Part shown: positions 8,864-25,558 of the stretch, piece after piece
Position numbering within the stretch: the stretch's first letter is position 1
Layout of the letters: each line of letters opens with the position of its first letter
IMG/VR virus record: IMGVR_UViG_3300012920_000234
Location: 1 to 25,558 of that record
Length of the DNA: 25,558 bases
Reading direction: 5' to 3' (one strand)
From: a virus
The notes under the pieces: generated by a model
The model's input: the letters and a program-made list of their open reading frames with translations, nothing else
What the model was told of the DNA's origin: nothing
Databases searched by the model: none
Made by a program: the position numbers and the translations under genes

Positions 8864-11800
8864 TTATACTCTTGCTAGTGTTATTTTAGCTCCGTAAACA
8901 TCTCTAGTTGTTGATCCTGGTGTAAATTTTATAGTTAAATATTTACTAGCAACTCCTATTTGATTAGATGATAAAGCTTGATTTGTATTAACTGATGGAC
9001 TACTAGTCAAAGCTGTATTAATATTGTTAGCTACATCGCAAGCATAAACGTCAAAAGTTGATGATGACGAGCTTCCGTTTACTTGTACGTGTGTTGCTTC
9101 ATAGCCAATAGGTATTTGAAAAGTAGCAAATAAAGATGCACTTGATAAATCTACTCTAGCACCTCCACCATTTGACCTACTGTAACCCGCTTTTCCTCTG
9201 TCTGAACTCATAACAAAATCTACAGCAGTTAAGTAAGCTGCTAAATCAAATATATTACCTATGTTAGTACCTCTTAACTCAGAGTCTTTTAAAAAGTCAA
9301 CAGACGTATCTTTAAAAGTTGCTATAGTTAGCTCACCTGCAGCACCCGCTGTTGATGTATTAGCTCTAATTTGAACTTCTCCATCTGCTGCTCTATTACA
9401 AATAGTAACTATATTAGAAGGATGAACTACAAAAGCAAATTTTAACCCTCCTGCTGAATCTCTGTACAATAACCCTCCACTTCCTGAGCCACCGTCTACA
9501 TCGTCATCAATAACAATATCACCGCCGCTATTTAACTTAATTTTTTCATTTGAGCCTTGTATTTCAACATTACCCGTAAATGTAATTTTATCAGTACCAA
9601 CTGTCATTAAGCTAGTTCCACCAAAAGAGCCATTGTTATTAAATTGAACTTGGGTATCTGAGCCAGCTGGATCAGTTGTAAAATCAGTTAGTTTACTATT
9701 AATAGCGTGTCCTGTAACTAATTTTTCACTATTTGCAGCAATATCTGTTTTATTATTTCCAACCTCTTGTATCGCAACGAAATTACCTGTACCTGTAGCT
9801 GTTGCTCTTTTTATAGTGTTTGGTGTTGTACTTGTATCAACCCATATATCACCTATACTTATTGCACTAGGCTCAGAATTACCTGTAAAAGTTTGATTTT
9901 TTGTATTTACAGTACTTGTTAAATTTGATATATCACTTTCATTATCTGTTGACCTTGTTGTGTTATCACTTATGCTACTTGTATTAGTTGTTATTGCATT
10001 AGAATTAATAGCAATTAAATCGGTATTAGTTGCAACTGTCGTTGAATCTGCTTTATTGTTAACATTATCTAATAATGATACTCTTGAAATAATTAATTTA
10101 GCTCCGCTCTCGTAAACATATTCAGGTGTAAAAGAGTCTACAGTTATACTTGTAGCACCTTTATTAACAACACCATTTACAATTAATTTTTTTAGAGTTC
10201 TTCTTGAATCAGAAGCCATTAAAATTATTTCCGTGTTATCAGGTATATCTGTATCTATCCCACCAGTACCATCTGACCCGGCAACTGTTATACTAGTTTT
10301 TGTTGTACCATCAACTAAAATATTCTCATTTAAAACACCAAAAGAATCTTTATTAATTAAACCTATTATTGTGTCATTACCAGGATTACCAACAAAACCA
10401 CCATCTTCATAACCACCACCAGGGTCTTGATAAGGACCATCATCTGTATTTATTGTTGGACTAGTTAAAGGAGATGTTTTAATTCCAATAAAATTAAATT
10501 CATTTAATTGTGGATTAAATTCAAGCCCAGTAAAACAATATAGTTCTTCTTGGTCAGTACCATTTTCATCTGTAAAAAATCTAATAAAAGGATTGTTAGG
10601 GTATATTGCATTAGAAGAACTTTCAAAAGGTTGTAGTAATTTAGAATATAATACTTCTTGTGGATTAGCATTATATTTTAAAATTAAATCAGTTATTAAT
10701 TTATGTATTTTAAAAGCGTTACCTGTTCCATTAATTTTCCAAGTTACTGATTGTATGTAGTTAGTACCATTATTAACCCAAATAACTTTTTCAGGAATAG
10801 CATTTGGACCATCGTTAAAAGTTATATTATCTATAATTAATTGTTCAGGGTTTGTGTCATTTTGTTCGTCATCACCTATATAAGAGTCCATAACCGAACC
10901 CGAAAAAGGTTCACCATCTTGTTCAGCATAAAGTTCTACTGGTTTATTACTATAATGTAATGTAATACTATAACCTGAAAATTGGTCTGCACGATATATA
11001 GTATTACCATCCTCACTCTCTACAGCAAACCAATTATTATCAGAACCACTCAGGTTGTTGTTAGTGTAAGCAGAACCCCAATCACCATCATAATCATTAT
11101 AAATGTGAACACCACTAGCCTCTGATACAGTTGAGTCTGCTGTTTGAACTTGTGTTTGGAAATGCCATTCTTCAAATGCATCGTCTCCAGTTGCACCTGG
11201 TAGTATTTGTGTTAAATCTGTTTTAAATACTTGAGCTTTACTTAAATCTGTGTTTTGATTAGTAGTTTCCCAACTACCACTTGGATATATTGGTGATGGA
11301 TTCGCACCATTTATAGGTCCAATATTATTTATTACTCTGTAAAAAGCATTATTTGTTGTACTACCTGAATTGACAGGTACTTTAAGCCAAAAAGGTAAAA
11401 CAACCCTACCTAAAAAAGCATTGTTTGGAAATGGAGATATAGTAGCAGAGCCAGTAACAGGAACACTAGGAAGTCTTTGAATGCGAATAGAAAAATTATA
11501 GTGTATTTTAAATGTTATTTGTTGAGTAGACTCAAAAAAACCTAATAAACTTGGTCCTTCTAAACTTTGACCATAAGGTTGCCAAGTTGCATTTTCATAA
11601 CCCCAAACAGGAAAATAATTCAAAGGATATAAATCACCAGTAAATTGGTCTGTTTCATCAGGGTCTCCCGAACCATTAAATCTAATTTTTACAGAACCTA
11701 ATTTACTACCAAAAGTTTTTGTTCTTTGAAAAAATCCAGGATTTCTACTTAATTCTGAAGGATTAGATACTGAAAGAGCTGACCTTTCTCCTGTAATAGA

Positions 11801-12670
11801 ATTTGCTACTTGAACAAAACTAGCAGTAGTTGATACAGTACCATTTTTTTTATAACTATTATAAGTTATATTACCATCACTACCTAATTGTTCAAAATGT
11901 GTAAAATAATATTTACCACGAACTAACATAAACCTACATTGAAATAATTGGCATATTGTTCTTAAAACATCATAGAATGATGAAAATGTTGCTTCGTTTA
12001 GTTCATTAAAACTATTAAAAGCAGAACTATCTAGTTGAGTATTTGCAAAAACTCCATTAGAAGAATCGTGAACAGAGTTAGTTGCATACCAATTAATTCT
12101 AGTAGCAAACATATCGTCTGTTGCAGAAAAATGGTCTTTAAAATCAATTTTTCCTAATATTCTTGATATGTGTTCATTTATAGTTACTCGACCTTCATAA
12201 GGACTAGTAGAAGAAGACTTATAATCTATTGTTCTTAATCTTTCAATACCATCCAAACAAACTATTTCTAAATCAAATGGGTATGAAGTATCAGCAATAC
12301 TTATTAATCTATTTTCTATATAACCTAACCAAAATAATTCATAATTAGTTCCATCAGGTGTAAATGGCGGATTTTGTCCTGCACCATAGGTGTCATCTAT
12401 AAAAACTTTAACTTGAAAATGAGGGGTGTTATTTGTACTTAAACTACCAATAAAACTTGATAACGTACTGTTATCTATATTCATTGTAAAACTTAATGTA
12501 CTAGACTTTATTAAGTCCCAAGTGTTTTCACCACCTTTATATTGTAATTTAAAACCATCACCTCTTACATTAAATTCAGTCGCTGTACCTGAAAATGTAT
12601 CATCATAAATCTCAATTTTAAATAATTCTTTTTTGAGATTTCTAAATTCACTTTTAAATCTTAAAGCCAT
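8864..12670 (-). CDS. Tail tip / receptor-binding fibre protein
   Basis: 1268 residues, the largest gene, directly after the tape measure gene. The N-terminal part (about 1-730) begins MALRFKSEFRNLKKELFKIEIYD in two pieces and reads as a tail-tip (baseplate-type) structural protein I associate with Bacteroidetes siphophages. A glycine-rich linker follows (about 745-770, PGGGYEDGGFVGNPG). Residues about 860-915 are Thr/Asn/Ser-rich repeats with heptad spacing, probably a trimeric stalk. SDTQVQFNNNGSFGG (about 1003-1018) is a common phage fibre motif. The C-terminal 150 residues are beta-rich and probably bind the host surface. No peptidase or glycosidase motif is seen. One gene seems to do the work that in many siphophages is shared by distal tail, tail-associated and fibre proteins. 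Confidence 0.75.
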   Translation of the reverse strand: MALRFKSEFRNLKKELFKIEIYDDTFSGTATEFNVRGDGFKLQYKGGENTWDLIKSSTLSFTMNIDNSTLSSFIGSLSTNNTPHFQVKVFIDDTYGAGQNPPFTPDGTNYELFWLGYIENRLISIADTSYPFDLEIVCLDGIERLRTIDYKSSSTSPYEGRVTINEHISRILGKIDFKDHFSATDDMFATRINWYATNSVHDSSNGVFANTQLDSSAFNSFNELNEATFSSFYDVLRTICQLFQCRFMLVRGKYYFTHFEQLGSDGNITYNSYKKNGTVSTTASFVQVANSITGERSALSVSNPSELSRNPGFFQRTKTFGSKLGSVKIRFNGSGDPDETDQFTGDLYPLNYFPVWGYENATWQPYGQSLEGPSLLGFFESTQQITFKIHYNFSIRIQRLPSVPVTGSATISPFPNNAFLGRVVLPFWLKVPVNSGSTTNNAFYRVINNIGPINGANPSPIYPSGSWETTNQNTDLSKAQVFKTDLTQILPGATGDDAFEEWHFQTQVQTADSTVSEASGVHIYNDYDGDWGSAYTNNNLSGSDNNWFAVESEDGNTIYRADQFSGYSITLHYSNKPVELYAEQDGEPFSGSVMDSYIGDDEQNDTNPEQLIIDNITFNDGPNAIPEKVIWVNNGTNYIQSVTWKINGTGNAFKIHKLITDLILKYNANPQEVLYSKLLQPFESSSNAIYPNNPFIRFFTDENGTDQEELYCFTGLEFNPQLNEFNFIGIKTSPLTSPTINTDDGPYQDPGGGYEDGGFVGNPGNDTIIGLINKDSFGVLNENILVDGTTKTSITVAGSDGTGGIDTDIPDNTEIILMASDSRRTLKKLIVNGVVNKGATSITVDSFTPEYVYESGAKLIISRVSLLDNVNNKADSTTVATNTDLIAINSNAITTNTSSISDNTTRSTDNESDISNLTSTVNTKNQTFTGNSEPSAISIGDIWVDTSTTPNTIKRATATGTGNFVAIQEVGNNKTDIAANSEKLVTGHAINSKLTDFTTDPAGSDTQVQFNNNGSFGGTSLMTVGTDKITFTGNVEIQGSNEKIKLNSGGDIVIDDDVDGGSGSGGLLYRDSAGGLKFAFVVHPSNIVTICNRAADGEVQIRANTSTAGAAGELTIATFKDTSVDFLKDSELRGTNIGNIFDLAAYLTAVDFVMSSDRGKAGYSRSNGGGARVDLSSASLFATFQIPIGYEATHVQVNGSSSSSTFDVYACDVANNINTALTSSPSVNTNQALSSNQIGVASKYLTIKFTPGSTTRDVYGAKITLARV

Positions 12671-12680
12671 ATTTAATTAT

Positions 12681-15311
12681 TTATATAACATTAAATAGAG
12701 GATTTTTTAATCCAGTTCTAACACCAAAAGACGTACCACCTTTTCTAGCGGCAATCTTATTACCCATTACTGTTGCTATTTGTATTCCCTCTGCATCTAA
12801 GTGACCTGTAACATTTACATTTACATTAATACTGCCCATCATAGACTTTAACTTATCTAATGGTGCTATAACTTCAGGGTTTGTTCTTGCTCCTTGATAT
12901 TCACCCATTAAACCTACTGTTGGTCCTGATACGATACCACCTTCAGCAAACGTAGGTATTGGTGTTGCTGCGATTGCTGCTACTTGAGCAGCTCCCAACA
13001 CTTTAATAACTTTTGCTAATGGTATAATTGGTAAAGCTTGAGCAACTGCTCTTGCTGTACTTACTATAGCACTAAAAATAGCTTGAGCCTTTTCTAATCT
13101 TGCTTGGTTTCTTTTTATCTTTTTTGATTTTTCAAAAGCTTCATCTTCTATCTTTTGAATAGCATCTTGCTTTTCTTGTTCAGTCATTTGAGCAAACTCA
13201 GCAGAATTTTCTAATCTTTGTATTTCTCTATCATATCTATCTTGGTCTGCTTGTTCTTGCTTTGCTAATTGTGCATCAAATACAGCACCTAGTGCACCAA
13301 AAGCTTGGGTGAACATTAGTTGTAAATTTTCAGCACCTGTTTGACCATTACTTTTTAACTCTTGAAAAAAACTTTTTATTTTAGAAGAACCATTTTTTAG
13401 TGTTGCAGAAAATTTATCTCCGAACAAGTTTTCCCACCAAGGTTTTTTGACAGTGGGTTCTTCACTCGGATCGGGTAAACTCATTACATTTCCACTTGGT
13501 GTTGGTGTATCGACTTGACCTGCTGTAGAGCCTATTTCTTCTAATAGTTTTAAGTAATCTTCAAGTGCTTGAGATGATTCGTCAAATTCTGTTTGATTTA
13601 ATTGTAACTCTTGTCTTAAATCTGATAATGACTTTAATACGTTTGGTCCTATTGTGGCATCTCCTAGTGTTCCAAAAAATTCATTTATTCCTTTACCAAA
13701 CTTTGTTATTTTTGTATCTTCAAAAAATCTATCTAACTTTTGTTTTGTAGATAAAAACTCATTTATTTCCTTACCTGAATCTTCATATGCATCTCTTAAA
13801 AGTTCTAAAGCTTTATTTTCATTCTGTATAAGTTCTTCAGCCTTTTTAGACTTTTCATTCATTAACTCTTGAAGTTTCTCTGACTCTGCTTGTAATCTTA
13901 TCTTTTTTAAGAACGATTTATTTGACTCATCTAAAGCCTTCTTTATATCTTCATTTGAAACTTTTTCAGCATCTAAGTTTCCTAAAAAGCTAGGGTATTC
14001 CTTTTGTAGCTCTTTTATTAGTTTTATTCTTTTCTCAGTACCTTCATTAGCAGACATAGCTCTAGCTGCTAAATTATTTAGAGCTGTATTTTCTTTTTCT
14101 ATTTCAGTTTTATTATCACTTGAAGCTACAGTTAATGCACCTATTCCTGCGGCTAATCCAGTAATAGCTAATCCTAAAGGTGATACTAAAGAAGCTAACG
14201 CACCAATAGCAATAAGGACAGGACCAAGAGCTGCTGATATACCTGCGAATGTAAGTATCATTCGTTTTGTATTATCGTCAAGATTTGTGAATTTATTAGC
14301 TAATTCAGTTATCTTTTTTATAATAGGTAATAACATATCTGCCAGTAAACCACCAAATTCTAATTTTAGTCCTTCTATAGCAGATTGCATTTTTTTAACC
14401 TTAGCAAAGGTAGTACCACCCATTTCGTTTGACATCTCTTTCAAACGACCTGTATTGGTTTTATACTCGTGTGCTAATTCTTTAGTAGCATCTCTATTAT
14501 CTAAAAGTATCTTTAGTTGAGCAGCAGCTGTTTTACCTACAGCATCTGAGGTGTCTATTATACTAACATTACCTTTAGCCATTTCATCAAGACCCTCAGT
14601 AAGACTCTTACCTCTTTGTGCTAACTCAATAAATATTTTACGAAGTCCTGTACCTGCCTTAGAAGCCTTAATACCATTATCCATTAAGACACCCATCATC
14701 GCAGATAACTCATTGAAGTCTACACCTACAGATTTAGCTGCTGTTCCTGCGTGACCAAAGGCTGTTGCGAATGTACTTAATTGTACGCTTGAGTTTGCTG
14801 ATGCACTTGCTAAAGTATTTGCTATTGAACCTGCGTGTTCTGCCTCTAAACCAAAAGCATTTATTGATGCTGATACTGTCTCAGCAGCCAAAGATAAATC
14901 CTCACCAGTTGCTAAAGCTAAATCTAATATGGAAGATTCCATATTTTTAATAGCAGTCGGATCAAAACCTTTACGACCTAATATTAACTGAAGTTCTGAT
15001 ACTTGTTGTGCAGTAAATTGAGTTGTACCACCTAATCGTTTTGCCTCGTCAGATAGCATTTTAAACTCACTAGCTGTTGCTCCAGTAATACTTTTGACCT
15101 TAGTCATTTCATTTTCAAAAGTAGAAAATGTGTCAAAAGCTTGTTTTCCTAAAGCAGCTAAAGGTGTTGTTACACCAAAAGATAAAAGTGAACCTGTACG
15201 AGCTGCATTAGATGCAAACTTTGAAAGTGAACTACTTGCTTTACTTAATCCTTTTTCTAGCCCCTTAATATTAGCAGCTACAATAATGGATATAGTTTTT
15301 ACACCACCCAT
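12681..15311 (-). CDS. Tail tape measure protein
   Basis: 876 residues. Residues about 60-250 carry the phage minor tail/TP901 tape measure core (GTTQFTAQQVSELQLILGRKG, then FGHAGTAAKSVGVDFNELS and GIKASKAGTGLRKIF, read in pieces). A hydrophobic block at about 345-395 likely crosses the host membrane at DNA entry. Long coiled coils follow, and the end FAEGGIVSGPTVGLMGEY is a frequent tape measure C-terminus. At about 0.15 nm per residue the tail would be near 130 nm (inference). It starts one base after the tail chaperone stop, as in lambda-like tail modules. Confidence 0.9.
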   Translation of the reverse strand: MGGVKTISIIVAANIKGLEKGLSKASSSLSKFASNAARTGSLLSFGVTTPLAALGKQAFDTFSTFENEMTKVKSITGATASEFKMLSDEAKRLGGTTQFTAQQVSELQLILGRKGFDPTAIKNMESSILDLALATGEDLSLAAETVSASINAFGLEAEHAGSIANTLASASANSSVQLSTFATAFGHAGTAAKSVGVDFNELSAMMGVLMDNGIKASKAGTGLRKIFIELAQRGKSLTEGLDEMAKGNVSIIDTSDAVGKTAAAQLKILLDNRDATKELAHEYKTNTGRLKEMSNEMGGTTFAKVKKMQSAIEGLKLEFGGLLADMLLPIIKKITELANKFTNLDDNTKRMILTFAGISAALGPVLIAIGALASLVSPLGLAITGLAAGIGALTVASSDNKTEIEKENTALNNLAARAMSANEGTEKRIKLIKELQKEYPSFLGNLDAEKVSNEDIKKALDESNKSFLKKIRLQAESEKLQELMNEKSKKAEELIQNENKALELLRDAYEDSGKEINEFLSTKQKLDRFFEDTKITKFGKGINEFFGTLGDATIGPNVLKSLSDLRQELQLNQTEFDESSQALEDYLKLLEEIGSTAGQVDTPTPSGNVMSLPDPSEEPTVKKPWWENLFGDKFSATLKNGSSKIKSFFQELKSNGQTGAENLQLMFTQAFGALGAVFDAQLAKQEQADQDRYDREIQRLENSAEFAQMTEQEKQDAIQKIEDEAFEKSKKIKRNQARLEKAQAIFSAIVSTARAVAQALPIIPLAKVIKVLGAAQVAAIAATPIPTFAEGGIVSGPTVGLMGEYQGARTNPEVIAPLDKLKSMMGSINVNVNVTGHLDAEGIQIATVMGNKIAARKGGTSFGVRTGLKNPLFNVI

Positions 15312-15312
15312 A

Positions 15313-15609
15313 CTAATTTATTTTTTTAATTTTCTTATTTTCATAAGACTCTATGACTTTCCTTATTTCTTCGGGTGAAGCTATCTTAACTCGTTTTTTC
15401 TTGTTTTCTTTGTCCCAAGGGAAAGGTAAAAGTTCTTGAGCCTTAATTTTATTCTTTAAGTGTGGTGATGCGGTAACGTGTGCTATCACCCTAACTTGTT
15501 CCCAAGAAGTTCTTATATCTTCTTTTCTTAGTTCAAAAAAACCTTTAGAAGCATTAGAAAAAGAACGAGGGGTTAAATCATATAAATCATTATAAGATAA
15601 CCCCATCAT
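15313..15609 (-). CDS. Downstream chaperone segment (T domain), from the first ATG
   Basis: 98 residues if initiated at ATG 15609, beginning MMGLSYNDLYDLTPRSFSN. LSYNDLYDLTPRSF is a conserved stretch in the second chaperone segment of many phages. There is a second acidic block just before this ATG that belongs to the shifted reading frame. I think it is made chiefly as the C-terminal part of the fusion rather than alone. The C-terminus is very basic and its stop is followed one base later by the tape measure start. Confidence 0.6.
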   Translation of the reverse strand: MMGLSYNDLYDLTPRSFSNASKGFFELRKEDIRTSWEQVRVIAHVTASPHLKNKIKAQELLPFPWDKENKKKRVKIASPEEIRKVIESYENKKIKKIN

Positions 15610-15983
15610 TCCTAACCCTATTTTTTCGAGTTTATCCCAATCAAATTCTTCTTCTTCTTCTTCATCGTTATCTTCACCCTCTACTCGTTTCCCTCTTGTT
15701 CGGGTTGGTCGAGTTGAAAAGCTTCAAATATTTCATTTAACTTAGAAAAATCTTCGTTATCAAGCCATTCTTCAATATCTTGTAACTTATACTTAAACTC
15801 TTCTCCTTGGTGTTTAGCTCCGTGTTTTAAACCAAAGTATGTTAAAATACCAACGTGGTCTATTTCCGTGCCTAACTTGTGGAGTTCATTAAGACCTAAC
15901 TTAGTTTTTCTACATATATCTTTAACACATAAGTAAGAAAATCTAATAGACCTTTTTTTACCACCTAATTCTACCTTTTTCAT
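15313..15983 (-). CDS. Tail assembly chaperone fusion made by -1 frameshift (gpGT-like)
   Basis: The upstream frame ends with codons gag gga aac gag tag. The heptamer G GGA AAC (15687-15693) just before the stop permits a -1 slip, after which reading continues through RVEGEDNDEEEEEEFDWDKL into the downstream frame to 15313. The fusion would be 223 residues: 99 from the upstream frame and 124 from the downstream one. The downstream frame is open well upstream of its first ATG (15609), which supports shifting rather than independent initiation. Gene order (tube, chaperones, tape measure) is that of lambda G-GT-H, where G GGA AAG is the slip site. The fusion links tube subunits to the tape measure during assembly. 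Confidence 0.85.
15681..15983 (-). CDS. Tail assembly chaperone, unshifted form (gpG-like)
   Basis: 100 residues, the product when no frameshift occurs. It begins MKKVELGGKKRSIRFSYLC, is helical and becomes acidic at the end (EDFSKLNEIFEAFQLDQPEQ). Sequence identity to lambda gpG is not visible; assignment rests on position between tail tube and tape measure genes and on the slip site. Such proteins bind the tape measure and are absent from the finished virion. Confidence 0.8.
   Translation of the reverse strand: MKKVELGGKKRSIRFSYLCVKDICRKTKLGLNELHKLGTEIDHVGILTYFGLKHGAKHQGEEFKYKLQDIEEWLDNEDFSKLNEIFEAFQLDQPEQEGNE
15687..15693 (-). promoter_or_regulatory. Slippery heptamer G GGA AAC for -1 frameshifting
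   Basis: In the upstream reading frame the heptamer is split as G GGA AAC, the X XXY YYZ form, and lies one codon before the TAG at 15681-15683. The distance from the re-read base (15687) to the downstream stop is 375 bases, an exact multiple of three. No clear stimulatory hairpin was found just downstream. Confidence 0.85.
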
Positions 15984-16000
15984 TTTTTATTTATTTATAA

Positions 16001-16783
16001 TTAATCAGTTCCTGTTGTTACACTAGCTGTTCCAGTAAATGTTACAGAATAAGTAAGATTATCCTCTACACCTGCTTCTACATTAAGACTAGATACAATA
16101 GCATCACCTTGATAATAATAATCACTACTACCCCCCGTAGTTCTTTGTTTAAATCTAAGTGTAATCTTATTACCAGTACCTAAGTCATTGATAAATTGTT
16201 GAAAATTTAAATCAGAAGTGTAATCTTGTAAAGCATCAGTAGACATCTCAAAAGATTTCATACCAGGAGCTTGCTCAGTCCAAGCGTCACTATCTTTAGT
16301 TGTAATATCTCTTAAATCTCTTGTGAAAGATATACTAGCACTAGTTGAAAACGCTATTGGCTCATAATCATTAGCAGTTGATCCTGCAGTAGTAACAGTT
16401 ATATCTATTGCACCTTCTTCTATTTCAGAAGTTCCATTAACTACACTAATAGAATTAGCTAAATCACCTGCAAAAGCATTAGTTACTGTAAATAATCTGC
16501 CACCATCATTAGATGATACTGATGAACAAGAGTAACCTGCTAAATTGTTTATAGCAGTTCTTAAAGCATTTGCTAAACCTAAATCCGTATTAGGTGCGAC
16601 AGTTACAGTTTCATCAGAAACAGAATCACCACTAGCATTAACTAAATTAGTAACCTTAACAGTACCATACGCATCCAATGGAGTATTACCATCTGATTTA
16701 ATAAAAATATTTGTTACTTGAGCAACATCAGAACTACTTGATTTCTTATAAATTAATAAATCCGAAGCATTTTGTATTGCCAT
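16001..16783 (-). CDS. Tail tube protein paralogue with inserted domain
   Basis: 260 residues. Residues 147-260 align with the smaller protein encoded at 16817-17269: TSASISFTRDLRDITTK against TSASISLTRDLRDSTTK, then MKSFEMSTDA against LKSWELSGDG, and SSLNVEAGVEDNLTYSVTFTG against the smaller protein's SSLSAEGGVEENATFSITITG. Both also begin MAI-x-NA-x-D. The extra roughly 120 residues (about 22-142) form a beta-rich Thr/Ser/Asn domain (TVTVAPNTDLGLANALRTAI is recognisable as a repeat-like adhesin module). It may be the main tube protein with a surface domain, or a minor form at one end of the tail. It directly precedes the chaperone genes. Confidence 0.75.
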   Translation of the reverse strand: MAIQNASDLLIYKKSSSSDVAQVTNIFIKSDGNTPLDAYGTVKVTNLVNASGDSVSDETVTVAPNTDLGLANALRTAINNLAGYSCSSVSSNDGGRLFTVTNAFAGDLANSISVVNGTSEIEEGAIDITVTTAGSTANDYEPIAFSTSASISFTRDLRDITTKDSDAWTEQAPGMKSFEMSTDALQDYTSDLNFQQFINDLGTGNKITLRFKQRTTGGSSDYYYQGDAIVSSLNVEAGVEDNLTYSVTFTGTASVTTGTD

Positions 16784-16816: not shown

Positions 16817-17269
16817 CTACAGAGAGGTTAGAGTGCCTGATCCTGTAATAGTAATTGAAAAAGTTGCGTTTTCTTCAACCCCACCTTCAGCAGATAAACT
16901 TGAAATGAAACCTTGTCCTTCATAGTGTTTACCTGGAGCACTTGAACCAAATTTTACATATACGTTTGTACCTGCTTCCCATAGGTCATATAATTTTGTG
17001 TAGCCCATTAAAGTTCCACTTGATCCTGCGTATGGATCGTTATCACTTACTGTATCTGAAAGTTCCACAAAACCATCTCCACTTAATTCCCAAGACTTTA
17101 AACCTGCTAAAGACTCAGACCAAGCTTCTGAAGATTTTGTTGTTGAATCTCTTAAGTCTCTAGTAAGAGATATACTAGCTGAAGTACAATGTGCTACTGT
17201 TTGCAAGTTGCCTTCTGTAGTATCTGTAGATACCTGAATAACTACATCTGTTGCATTTGAAATTGCCAT
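16817..17269 (-). CDS. Major tail tube protein (TP901-1-like)
   Basis: 150 residues in the usual position between the tail completion and chaperone genes. The fold is beta-rich with short hydrophobic strands (HCTSASISLTRDLRDS, VYVKFGSSAPGKHYEGQGF), consistent with a tail tube subunit that forms hexameric rings. It is a paralogue of the larger protein encoded just downstream; the small one looks like the basic form. Assignment is from position and pattern. Confidence 0.75.
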   Translation of the reverse strand: MAISNATDVVIQVSTDTTEGNLQTVAHCTSASISLTRDLRDSTTKSSEAWSESLAGLKSWELSGDGFVELSDTVSDNDPYAGSSGTLMGYTKLYDLWEAGTNVYVKFGSSAPGKHYEGQGFISSLSAEGGVEENATFSITITGSGTLTSL

Positions 17270-23708: not shown

Positions 23709-24206
23709 TTATTTATATTTTTTTTTAAGATAATTTGTAATCCTTTGTAAGTACTTGTAAATCTGCCTTGGAGATACCTTTTTTATCTTAGCAATTTCAG
23801 TTACTTTTAGATTATAAACATATCTCATTTCAATTATTTCTCTTTCTTTTTTAGTAAGTAAGTGATGTATATCAATCCAAACTTTATCAGCTAAAGGATT
23901 GTACTCAGTATCGTCTATATCTATAAATGGTATTTGTTGTCTGTACTTCTTGTGAAATGGTGAAGTACTAGAGAATACTTGGTTTGTAATTATTCTAGCA
24001 ATATAGAATTTAAAGTGTCCTCTTTCGTGAATCGTTTGTATAGATTCATCATTTTGAGTTAATAGTATTAAACAAACCTCTTGAACTAAATCATCAACAA
24101 GGTAAAGGTTTTTATTGCTCCTGAGAACATTAGTACAAATCTCTCTAATAGAGTTGTATTCTTTTTCTATTATCTCATTCTTAGATAAAAAATATTTCTT
24201 TGTCAT
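23709..24206 (-). CDS. Phage sigma-70-like factor
   Basis: 165 residues from ATG 24206 (an in-frame GTG at 24221 is less likely). DDLVQEVCLILL (38-49) resembles sigma region 2 and LLTKKEREIIEMRY followed by VTEIAKIKKVSPRQIYKYLQRI (116-156) is a region 4 helix-turn-helix. It would bind core RNA polymerase or -35 DNA and direct transcription of some phage genes; an ECF-type sigma is the best comparison. It overlaps the terminase end by 26 bases. This placement between terminase and portal is notable. An anti-sigma or region-4-only regulator would be the alternative. Confidence 0.7.
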   Translation of the reverse strand: MTKKYFLSKNEIIEKEYNSIREICTNVLRSNKNLYLVDDLVQEVCLILLTQNDESIQTIHERGHFKFYIARIITNQVFSSTSPFHKKYRQQIPFIDIDDTEYNPLADKVWIDIHHLLTKKEREIIEMRYVYNLKVTEIAKIKKVSPRQIYKYLQRITNYLKKKYK

Positions 24207-25558
24207 CGTAAGCTGAGCCACCCTTATTCTTGTTTTCCATAGCTTCAGATAGTGCCATAAGACAAGCTATGACACCATCCACTTTTTCGTTTGATTTACT
24301 TTTATCTACCTTTACGTTAGCAGCAGGATCGAATGTAAGTACTACATTACTCATCATCCATCTTAGAACTGGATTACCTCCGTGTCTAACCTTACCACTT
24401 AATATTAATGTTTCAAATTCTTTTGTTGCAGGTGACATTGTTTTATAACCTTGACCTACAGGTATCATAGGACAACCTTCCTCAGTCAAGTCGATTACAA
24501 TTTGACTAGCGTTCCATCGATCATAAGCTACTATTTGAATATCAAATATCTCACTTAAATCTCGAATTTTTTGCTTAATGTAATTGTAATCACAAACGTC
24601 ACCAGGAGTATAGATTATGTACCCCTCTCTTTCCCACTTATCATAATTTACTTTATCTCTTTCTGACCTTTTCTTAGCATTCTCTTCAGGTATAAAAGAA
24701 TAGTTTATAATATCGTAACCACCCTCATCATCAGGGAACAATAAAGCTAAACAAGTAACATCTCTTGTACTTGCCAAGTCTAATCCTGCGTAACAAACTT
24801 TACCTCTTAAATTAGACTCATTTACTTCGTTTGCACAAGCCATCCATTTCTCGTCACTAATCCACTTAGTTTCATTAGCAACCCATTGACAAAGGTGAAG
24901 TCTACGAAACGTATTTTCGTATGAAGGCTCATTCTTAGCTTTAGTTGCTTGTTGCCTCATATACTCTTCTTTTATAATAGAACCATAGCCTGGATTAGCT
25001 TTCTTCCAAACCTCTTCGCTAAAAATATCATCTTCCTCATCAGCTTCAAATACAACTGCTAAGAACGATTCGTCTTTGATAGTACCATCAATTAATTTTT
25101 TAGAATAGTCATAAAGCTCTCTCGATATATGGTCTTTCTGATTACCTGCCCCTGCTGTAGTTATGCCTAACATTAGAGGCTCTTTTCTAGCACCCATAGA
25201 AGTAAGTAATACATCGTAGAGGTCACGATTCTTGTGCGAGTGAATCTCATCCAGTAAACAACAAGAGAGGTTTAGTCCGTGCTTGGTATCTGCATCAGCC
25301 GAAATAACTTTGTAGTACGATCCAACTTTATCGTAAGTAATTGAGTCACGATAAGTACCTGCTCTTTTGATAAGGTTAGGTTCTTGTAAAACCATTTGTT
25401 TAGCTATAGAGAAACTTAACCTAGCTTGTTCTTTGTCAGCAGCAGCCGATACAATCTCAGCACCTTTCTCTCCATCAGAGAAAAGCATATAGAGTGCTAT
25501 ACCAACCATCATCGTAGTCTTTCCATTCTTACGAGGAATGAAGATAAAGCACTGTCTA
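24181..25558 (-). CDS. terL: Terminase large subunit, C-terminal part (N-terminus outside the window)
   Basis: An open frame enters at the window edge; 15 codons precede the methionine at 25512, including FIPRKNGKTT, which is the Walker A motif, so that methionine is not the start. Counting from 25512: LLDEIHSH has Walker B Asp88-Glu89, and GITTAGAG is the coupling motif III. The nuclease domain has AGLDLAST (Asp245), AYDRWNA (Asp331) and KVDGVIA (Asp412), the three acidic residues that bind metal. This is the HK97-type Terminase_1 pattern. The enzyme cuts concatemers and pumps DNA into the prohead. The small subunit should lie beyond 25558. Confidence 0.95.
   Translation of the reverse strand, partial: RQCFIFIPRKNGKTTMMVGIALYMLFSDGEKGAEIVSAAADKEQARLSFSIAKQMVLQEPNLIKRAGTYRDSITYDKVGSYYKVISADADTKHGLNLSCCLLDEIHSHKNRDLYDVLLTSMGARKEPLMLGITTAGAGNQKDHISRELYDYSKKLIDGTIKDESFLAVVFEADEEDDIFSEEVWKKANPGYGSIIKEEYMRQQATKAKNEPSYENTFRRLHLCQWVANETKWISDEKWMACANEVNESNLRGKVCYAGLDLASTRDVTCLALLFPDDEGGYDIINYSFIPEENAKKRSERDKVNYDKWEREGYIIYTPGDVCDYNYIKQKIRDLSEIFDIQIVAYDRWNASQIVIDLTEEGCPMIPVGQGYKTMSPATKEFETLILSGKVRHGGNPVLRWMMSNVVLTFDPAANVKVDKSKSNEKVDGVIACLMALSEAMENKNKGGSAYDDKEIFFI

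Follow-up and report, generated by a model that had tools for sequence, protein, structure and literature searches.

Do the two overlapping reading frames that lie between tail tube-like genes and a tape measure gene in an uncultured viral genome encode separate proteins, or is the second frame entered from the first by programmed −1 ribosomal frameshifting? The question is raised by a GGGAAAC heptamer in IMG/VR record IMGVR_UViG_3300012920_000234 (positions 1 to 25,558; this whole 25,558-nucleotide stretch is referred to as the window). In phage lambda, tandem-tRNA slippage gives rise to G and GT in unequal amounts (PMC5009743). Judging from its sequence context, the site in the window is almost certainly a signal for programmed −1 ribosomal frameshifting of the same gpG/gpGT tail-assembly-chaperone type.

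Reading frames and gene order at the junction

The genes concerned lie on the minus strand, which the initial annotation had not stated and which is corrected here. Frame 0 at the end of the G-like gene reads GAG GGA AAC GAG TAG, and the XXXYYYZ heptamer is in the correct register within the overlap of the G and T frames (Table 1). The frame relations proposed in the initial annotation are borne out: the heptamer (15693-15687) precedes the stop (TAG, 15683-15681) by one sense codon, the −1 frame is open from upstream (15723 to 15313), and the 125 codons from 15687 to 15313 (375 nt) correspond to 124 residues plus the stop. The predicted fusion of 223 residues (99 + 124 aa, with EQEGN followed by RVEGED at the junction) is likewise arithmetically sound. 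The assignment to tail chaperone genes is supported by the neighborhood, which runs tail tube, G, T, tape measure, and thus places the pair where the chaperone frameshift class requires it.

Table 1. Features at and around the G/T junction of the window
Feature	Positions	Strand	Basis or remark
G-like frame-0 ORF, 100 aa, ending ...EQEGNE and stop	15681..15983	minus	phrog_2115, IMG/VR relatives
Candidate slippery heptamer G GGA AAC	15687..15693	minus	G GGA AAG in relatives
Frame-0 TAG stop	15681..15683	minus	one codon (GAG) past the heptamer
T-like −1 frame extension in the predicted fusion, 124 aa + TAA	15313..15687	minus	phrog_16333, purifying selection
Stop-to-stop −1 frame around T	15313-15723	minus	
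First ATG of the T frame	15607..15609	minus	ORF-caller start; downstream of the conserved-core start, within the hairpin
RNA hairpin, 22 bp, conserved, within the T frame	15562..15612	minus	15612-15590 pairs with 15583-15562
Tape measure gene	12681..15311	minus	directly downstream of T; PhageMin_Tail E 1.5e-29, phrog_1533 E 1.7e-69
Tail tube-like gene	16001..16783	minus	directly upstream of G; Phage_tail_2 E 6e-12, phrog_1407
Second tail-tube-like gene	16817-17269	minus	adjoins 16001-16783

At the protein level, G matched phrog_2115 ("tail protein") weakly (E 0.0034), and its predicted fold resembled annotated tail assembly chaperones weakly (best of these matches, E 0.12). T belongs to phrog_16333 (E 2.7e-18), a family without assigned function. 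Neither protein gave a Pfam or PDB match in sequence and fold searches or detectable sequence similarity to lambda G or T, and the structure model of T (pTM 0.36) was too poor for interpretation. The two tail-tube (Phage_tail_2) genes form an adjacent pair, the first of which has an extra N-terminal part. Elsewhere in the window, a gene between the terminase and portal genes (23709-24221, minus strand) encodes a sigma-70 region 2/4-like protein, possibly a phage sigma factor.

In the mechanism that we propose, most ribosomes would produce the 100-aa G-like protein and terminate at 15681. In a minority of ribosomes, the peptidyl-tRNA paired with GGA and the tRNA-Asn paired with AAC would move one base back onto GGG AAA. 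Translation would then pass through R-V-E-G-E-D and a variable acidic linker into the T domain, yielding a GT fusion of 223 aa. As in lambda, G would be abundant and GT scarce, and together they would cover the tape measure protein and bring in the subunits of the tail tube. From the sequence, its register, the gene order and the conservation described below we infer slippage, its efficiency and the chaperone role.

The predicted slip site is conserved beyond protein demand

As a bare string, GGGAAAC is not rare, occurring twice in the window against 1.62 occurrences expected; the second copy, at 11265, lies out of register within a long ORF (8864-12670) and was discarded as a candidate. In first-order Markov simulations, an in-register heptamer of any XXXYYYZ type arose in the 43-nt overlap with a probability of 0.10, and one of the GGGAAAZ type with a probability of 0.004. 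The sequence-based case for frameshifting is thus carried by conservation, not by single-sequence rarity.

Among 80 marine IMG/VR loci retained as relatives of the G part (68-97% identity), 78, all outside the window's clade, carry GGGAAAG at the identical codons with a stop directly after it, and the other two, both close to the window, carry GGGAAAC. A scan with a T-domain profile gave the same picture wherever a contig included the junction, with a single variant, GGGAAAG TCA TAG. Over all locus entries, in which some contigs are counted twice, there are 142 cases of GGGAAAG followed by TAG, 10 followed by TAA and one followed by TCA, in addition to five of GGGAAAC; the heptamer was unreadable in two entries, in which the upstream gene is not properly represented. 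Conservation in close relatives, on which the initial annotation had made its reading depend, therefore extends to every relative with a readable junction. Across the whole viral collection, a pattern scan found a non-G seventh base in this context in the window's clade only, and no prophage relatives emerged when genome contigs were scanned with the G profile. The lambda record, used as a positive control, showed GGGAAAG in the same register. One contig, IMGVR_UViG_3300020469_000117 (36.5 kb; entries L036 and L067), contains two diverged G/T cassettes about 28 kb apart and possibly represents two joined genomes.

Codon usage at the site was compared across 26 clusters below 90% DNA identity. 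Gly98 is encoded by GGA in all 26 (29% elsewhere in G), all 25 clusters with lysine at codon 99 use AAG (47% elsewhere), and Glu97 is encoded by GAG in 24 of 24 (32% elsewhere), so that codons 97-99 appear as a frozen GAG GGA AAG, conserved beyond what the protein demands. Moreover, in 27 of 158 locus entries a −1 frame stop immediately abuts the 5′ side of the heptamer, leaving the heptamer as the sole possible entry into T there. The same data bear on the idea that a sequencing error or a decayed gene merely mimics a frameshift; although the window is a single metagenomic contig, the same frame relation recurs in 83 distinct sequences and more than 100 locus entries, and this conservation refutes a frame break, whose residual probability we regard as vanishingly small.

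T is very probably read as an extension of G

ORF callers would start T at the in-frame ATG at 15609, an ATG is found at the same place in most relatives, and the annotated record of Cellulophaga phage phi39:1 uses such a start. T might accordingly be a separate gene and the heptamer incidental. However, the conserved T core begins with [FI][DN]WDKLE upstream of this ATG, and no locus contains a T-frame ATG ahead of the core; in four loci, the ATG near the core is itself missing. Core substitutions upstream of the first ATG fall on codon positions in the order 3>1>2 (5461, 2623 and 903), indicating that this part, including the WDKLExIGLG motif, is under purifying selection at the amino-acid level. 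The initial annotation had described an acidic linker leading into the next gene; such a linker is present, but its length is variable, and the conserved T core starts only at FDWDKLE. The linker between heptamer and core comprises 13 to 24 codons and varies by whole codons, with the frame kept. Together with the frozen synonymous positions of the heptamer and the stable predicted hairpin that covers the T-frame ATG ATG (15609-15604), these features make an independently started T very improbable. Comparative sequence evidence instead indicates that T is read as an extension of G and has no conserved start of its own.

A conserved RNA hairpin resides in the T frame

Known frameshift stimulators lie about 5-9 nt from the slip site. 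At this spacing no conserved structure was found (alifold 0.0 for both the first 60 and the first 90 nt), and single-sequence folds just past the heptamer were unremarkable. Upon extension to 120 nt past the heptamer, a consensus stem appeared (-6.0, compared to a column-shuffled mean of -0.36; 0/100 shuffles). The corresponding hairpin is present in the window and at the homologous place in L002-L167, and several lines of evidence support its existence well, as far as sequences can tell.

First, codon 128 (GGG in 30 of 30 glycines) shows the strongest synonymous constraint in the fused gene, ranking above codons 98, 97 and 99, and codon 138 (ACC) ranks tenth in the same scan. Second, pairing is maintained through sequence change. 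The GGGG:CCCC core is paired in all 59 distinct sequences, with one core pair being GC in 48, GU in seven and AU in four, the latter through replacement of GGG/ACC by GAG/ACT (L035, L049, L156/L159). The pair between the third base of Gly126 and the first base of codon 141 occurs as AU (43), GU (5), UA (5), CG (4) and UG (1), and codon 141 shifts between Ser, Thr and Ala along with the pairing changes. Overall, 82% of cells in the 22-bp hairpin are paired, with a covariation score of 0.174, compared to 0.118 upon shuffling (0/500) and at most 0.101 when the hairpin was slid; as phylogeny is not maintained in this shuffling, the stronger argument comes from compensatory changes that recur between similar sequences (L143/L049, L068/L156).

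Third, the 51-nt hairpin segment folds more stably than its coding content predicts. Resampling of synonymous codons in 33 sequences gave a mean z of -4.9, with 1 of 6600 resampled sequences being as stable, while the antisense strand gave z -2.8. Tolerance of G.U pairs and the stronger signal on the sense strand point to a structure in RNA rather than to a DNA inverted repeat. When codon resampling is applied to the window's sequence alone, the scans are noisy and other regions are listed as well. The T hairpin is singled out only at the family level, where no other conserved structure of the fused gene is as strong (mean z -5.3; next best -1.7) and the other 17-codon windows of that gene range from about -1.7 to +0.6. 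In the first 85 codons of the tape measure gene, mean z reached at most -2.8; this value, found for codons 57-73 in 16 relatives, is the second-best codon-resampled folding signal. In 15200-16100, Rfam covariance models gave no match up to E = 1.

A hairpin also occurs in more distant phages. In related gut phages whose slip run is A9G (L185-L207), most members have one at the homologous position (NTGGGGTGCAT...ATGCACCCC), with a stability of about -26 kcal/mol and a mean z of -2.45 at that offset and near 0 elsewhere, against a conservative background for which codon usage was drawn from the same genes. The register of its 5′ strand relative to the protein differs. F4 and phi39:1, both of which have slip runs, showed no comparable hairpin at this position, and neither did L171.

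Possible roles of the hairpin

Could the hairpin stimulate slippage? It is the strongest conserved structure of the fused gene, it lies in a region that only shifted ribosomes read, and it has the above counterpart in the gut phages whose slip run is A9. However, 75 nt separate the heptamer from the base of the stem, far beyond the spacing of known stimulators, and this distance varies with the 13- to 24-codon linker, which makes a classical stimulator role unlikely; F4, phi39:1 and L171 moreover show no comparable hairpin. We therefore consider that the hairpin is probably not the frameshift stimulator, and that stimulation by 15612-15562 from about 75 nt away is an unlikely addition to the frameshift reading.

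Occlusion of the start codon as the sole role is weakened by L035 and L093, which have no ATG at this place and yet keep the hairpin. A terminator function was rejected, as few T's follow the stem and they are not conserved as a U-run. The hairpin could possibly be a site of processing or protein binding, or restrain expression of the T frame in some other way. Tentatively, and with somewhat less than even confidence, we suggest that the T-frame hairpin in chaperone genes of Bacteroidota phages is a dedicated, covarying element, read only by shifted ribosomes, that controls the amount of GT fusion. For example, it may prevent free T from being initiated internally, act as a site for processing or protein binding, or modulate frameshifting from far downstream. 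If this suggestion is correct, the G:GT ratio would be subject to a second layer of control, of which the searchable literature gives no description. As a covariation-supported RNA structure in a coding region of dsDNA phages, located at a fixed place of the T domain in lineages with different slip sites, the hairpin matters more than the frameshift itself; it yields the specific and testable claim that the G:GT ratio or T expression is under additional control.

Origin of the GGGAAAC variant

Comparison of the −1 frame in L005 (GGG AAA GTA GTA GAG GGA) and in the window (GGG AAA CGA GTA GAG GGT) reveals that a change from GTA to CGA accounts for both the C at the seventh base and the loss of the first stop. 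By parsimony, GGGAAAG would be ancestral, and GGGAAAC together with the displaced stop would be derived in the window's clade. The initial annotation had correctly placed the heptamer one base away from the lambda G GGA AAG, but GGGAAAC is better viewed as this derived variant, with relatives that carry the lambda heptamer itself. On E. coli ribosomes, a second codon AAG is much better than AAC in the A_AAA_AAN context, and G_GGA_AAC is among the most shifty heptamers on mammalian ribosomes (PMC5009743). GGGAAAC is probably less slippery than GGGAAAG, and the window's clade and its relatives offer a clean natural comparison of GGGAAAC-sense-stop with GGGAAAG-stop.

Comparison with known systems

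T homologues of the phrog_16333 type are found in Cellulophaga phage phi39:1, Bacteroides phage F4 and other gut phages, and Cellulophaga phage phi10:1 encodes a weak G homologue. Because the T- and G-domain relatives are in Cellulophaga, Bacteroides and gut phages, the lineage of the window probably infects Bacteroidota. These phages share the gene order of the window but differ in the junction, which is an A8-A9 run; relative to G, the T frame is −1 in F4 and MT835789 and +1 (equivalent to −2) in both Cellulophaga phages. The annotated records of the Cellulophaga and Bacteroides relatives show no G-T fusion. Unannotated A8-A9 junctions are present in phi39:1 (L084, 1427-1436), phi10:1 (L087, 1850-1859), L085 and L086, and in phi10:1 the G gene itself is unannotated. 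Such runs make transcriptional slippage plausible in these distant relatives, and RNA polymerase rather than the ribosome might by extension be the agent that gives access to T. In the window and its clade, however, the G3A3 sequence is too short and mixed, and its register obeys the tandem-tRNA rule, rendering polymerase slippage extremely improbable there.

Ribosomal frameshifting at tail-chaperone genes is a known phenomenon, to which the window adds another predicted case, extending it to a large lineage of uncultured marine phages. Like lambda gpG/gpGT, the locus has an in-register XXXYYYZ heptamer close to where the upstream, putative chaperone gene ends, a T extension in the −1 frame and a tape measure gene next, and the window's relatives have a heptamer identical to that of lambda. 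Unlike lambda, the window reads C rather than G as the seventh base, and compared with its own relatives the stop has shifted by one codon. The same heptamer is nevertheless predicted at the tail chaperone junctions of Burkholderia phage KL1 (gp18/gp19; PMC3483164) and Caulobacter phage Colossus (PMC3556154), and G_GGA_AAC is reported to serve the g-t frameshift of the haloarchaeal virus HCTV-1 (PMC5009743). The window's variant is thus known in kind, although these three viruses have unrelated hosts and KL1 differs in that its heptamer runs directly into the stop and an additional tail gene lies ahead of the tape measure gene.
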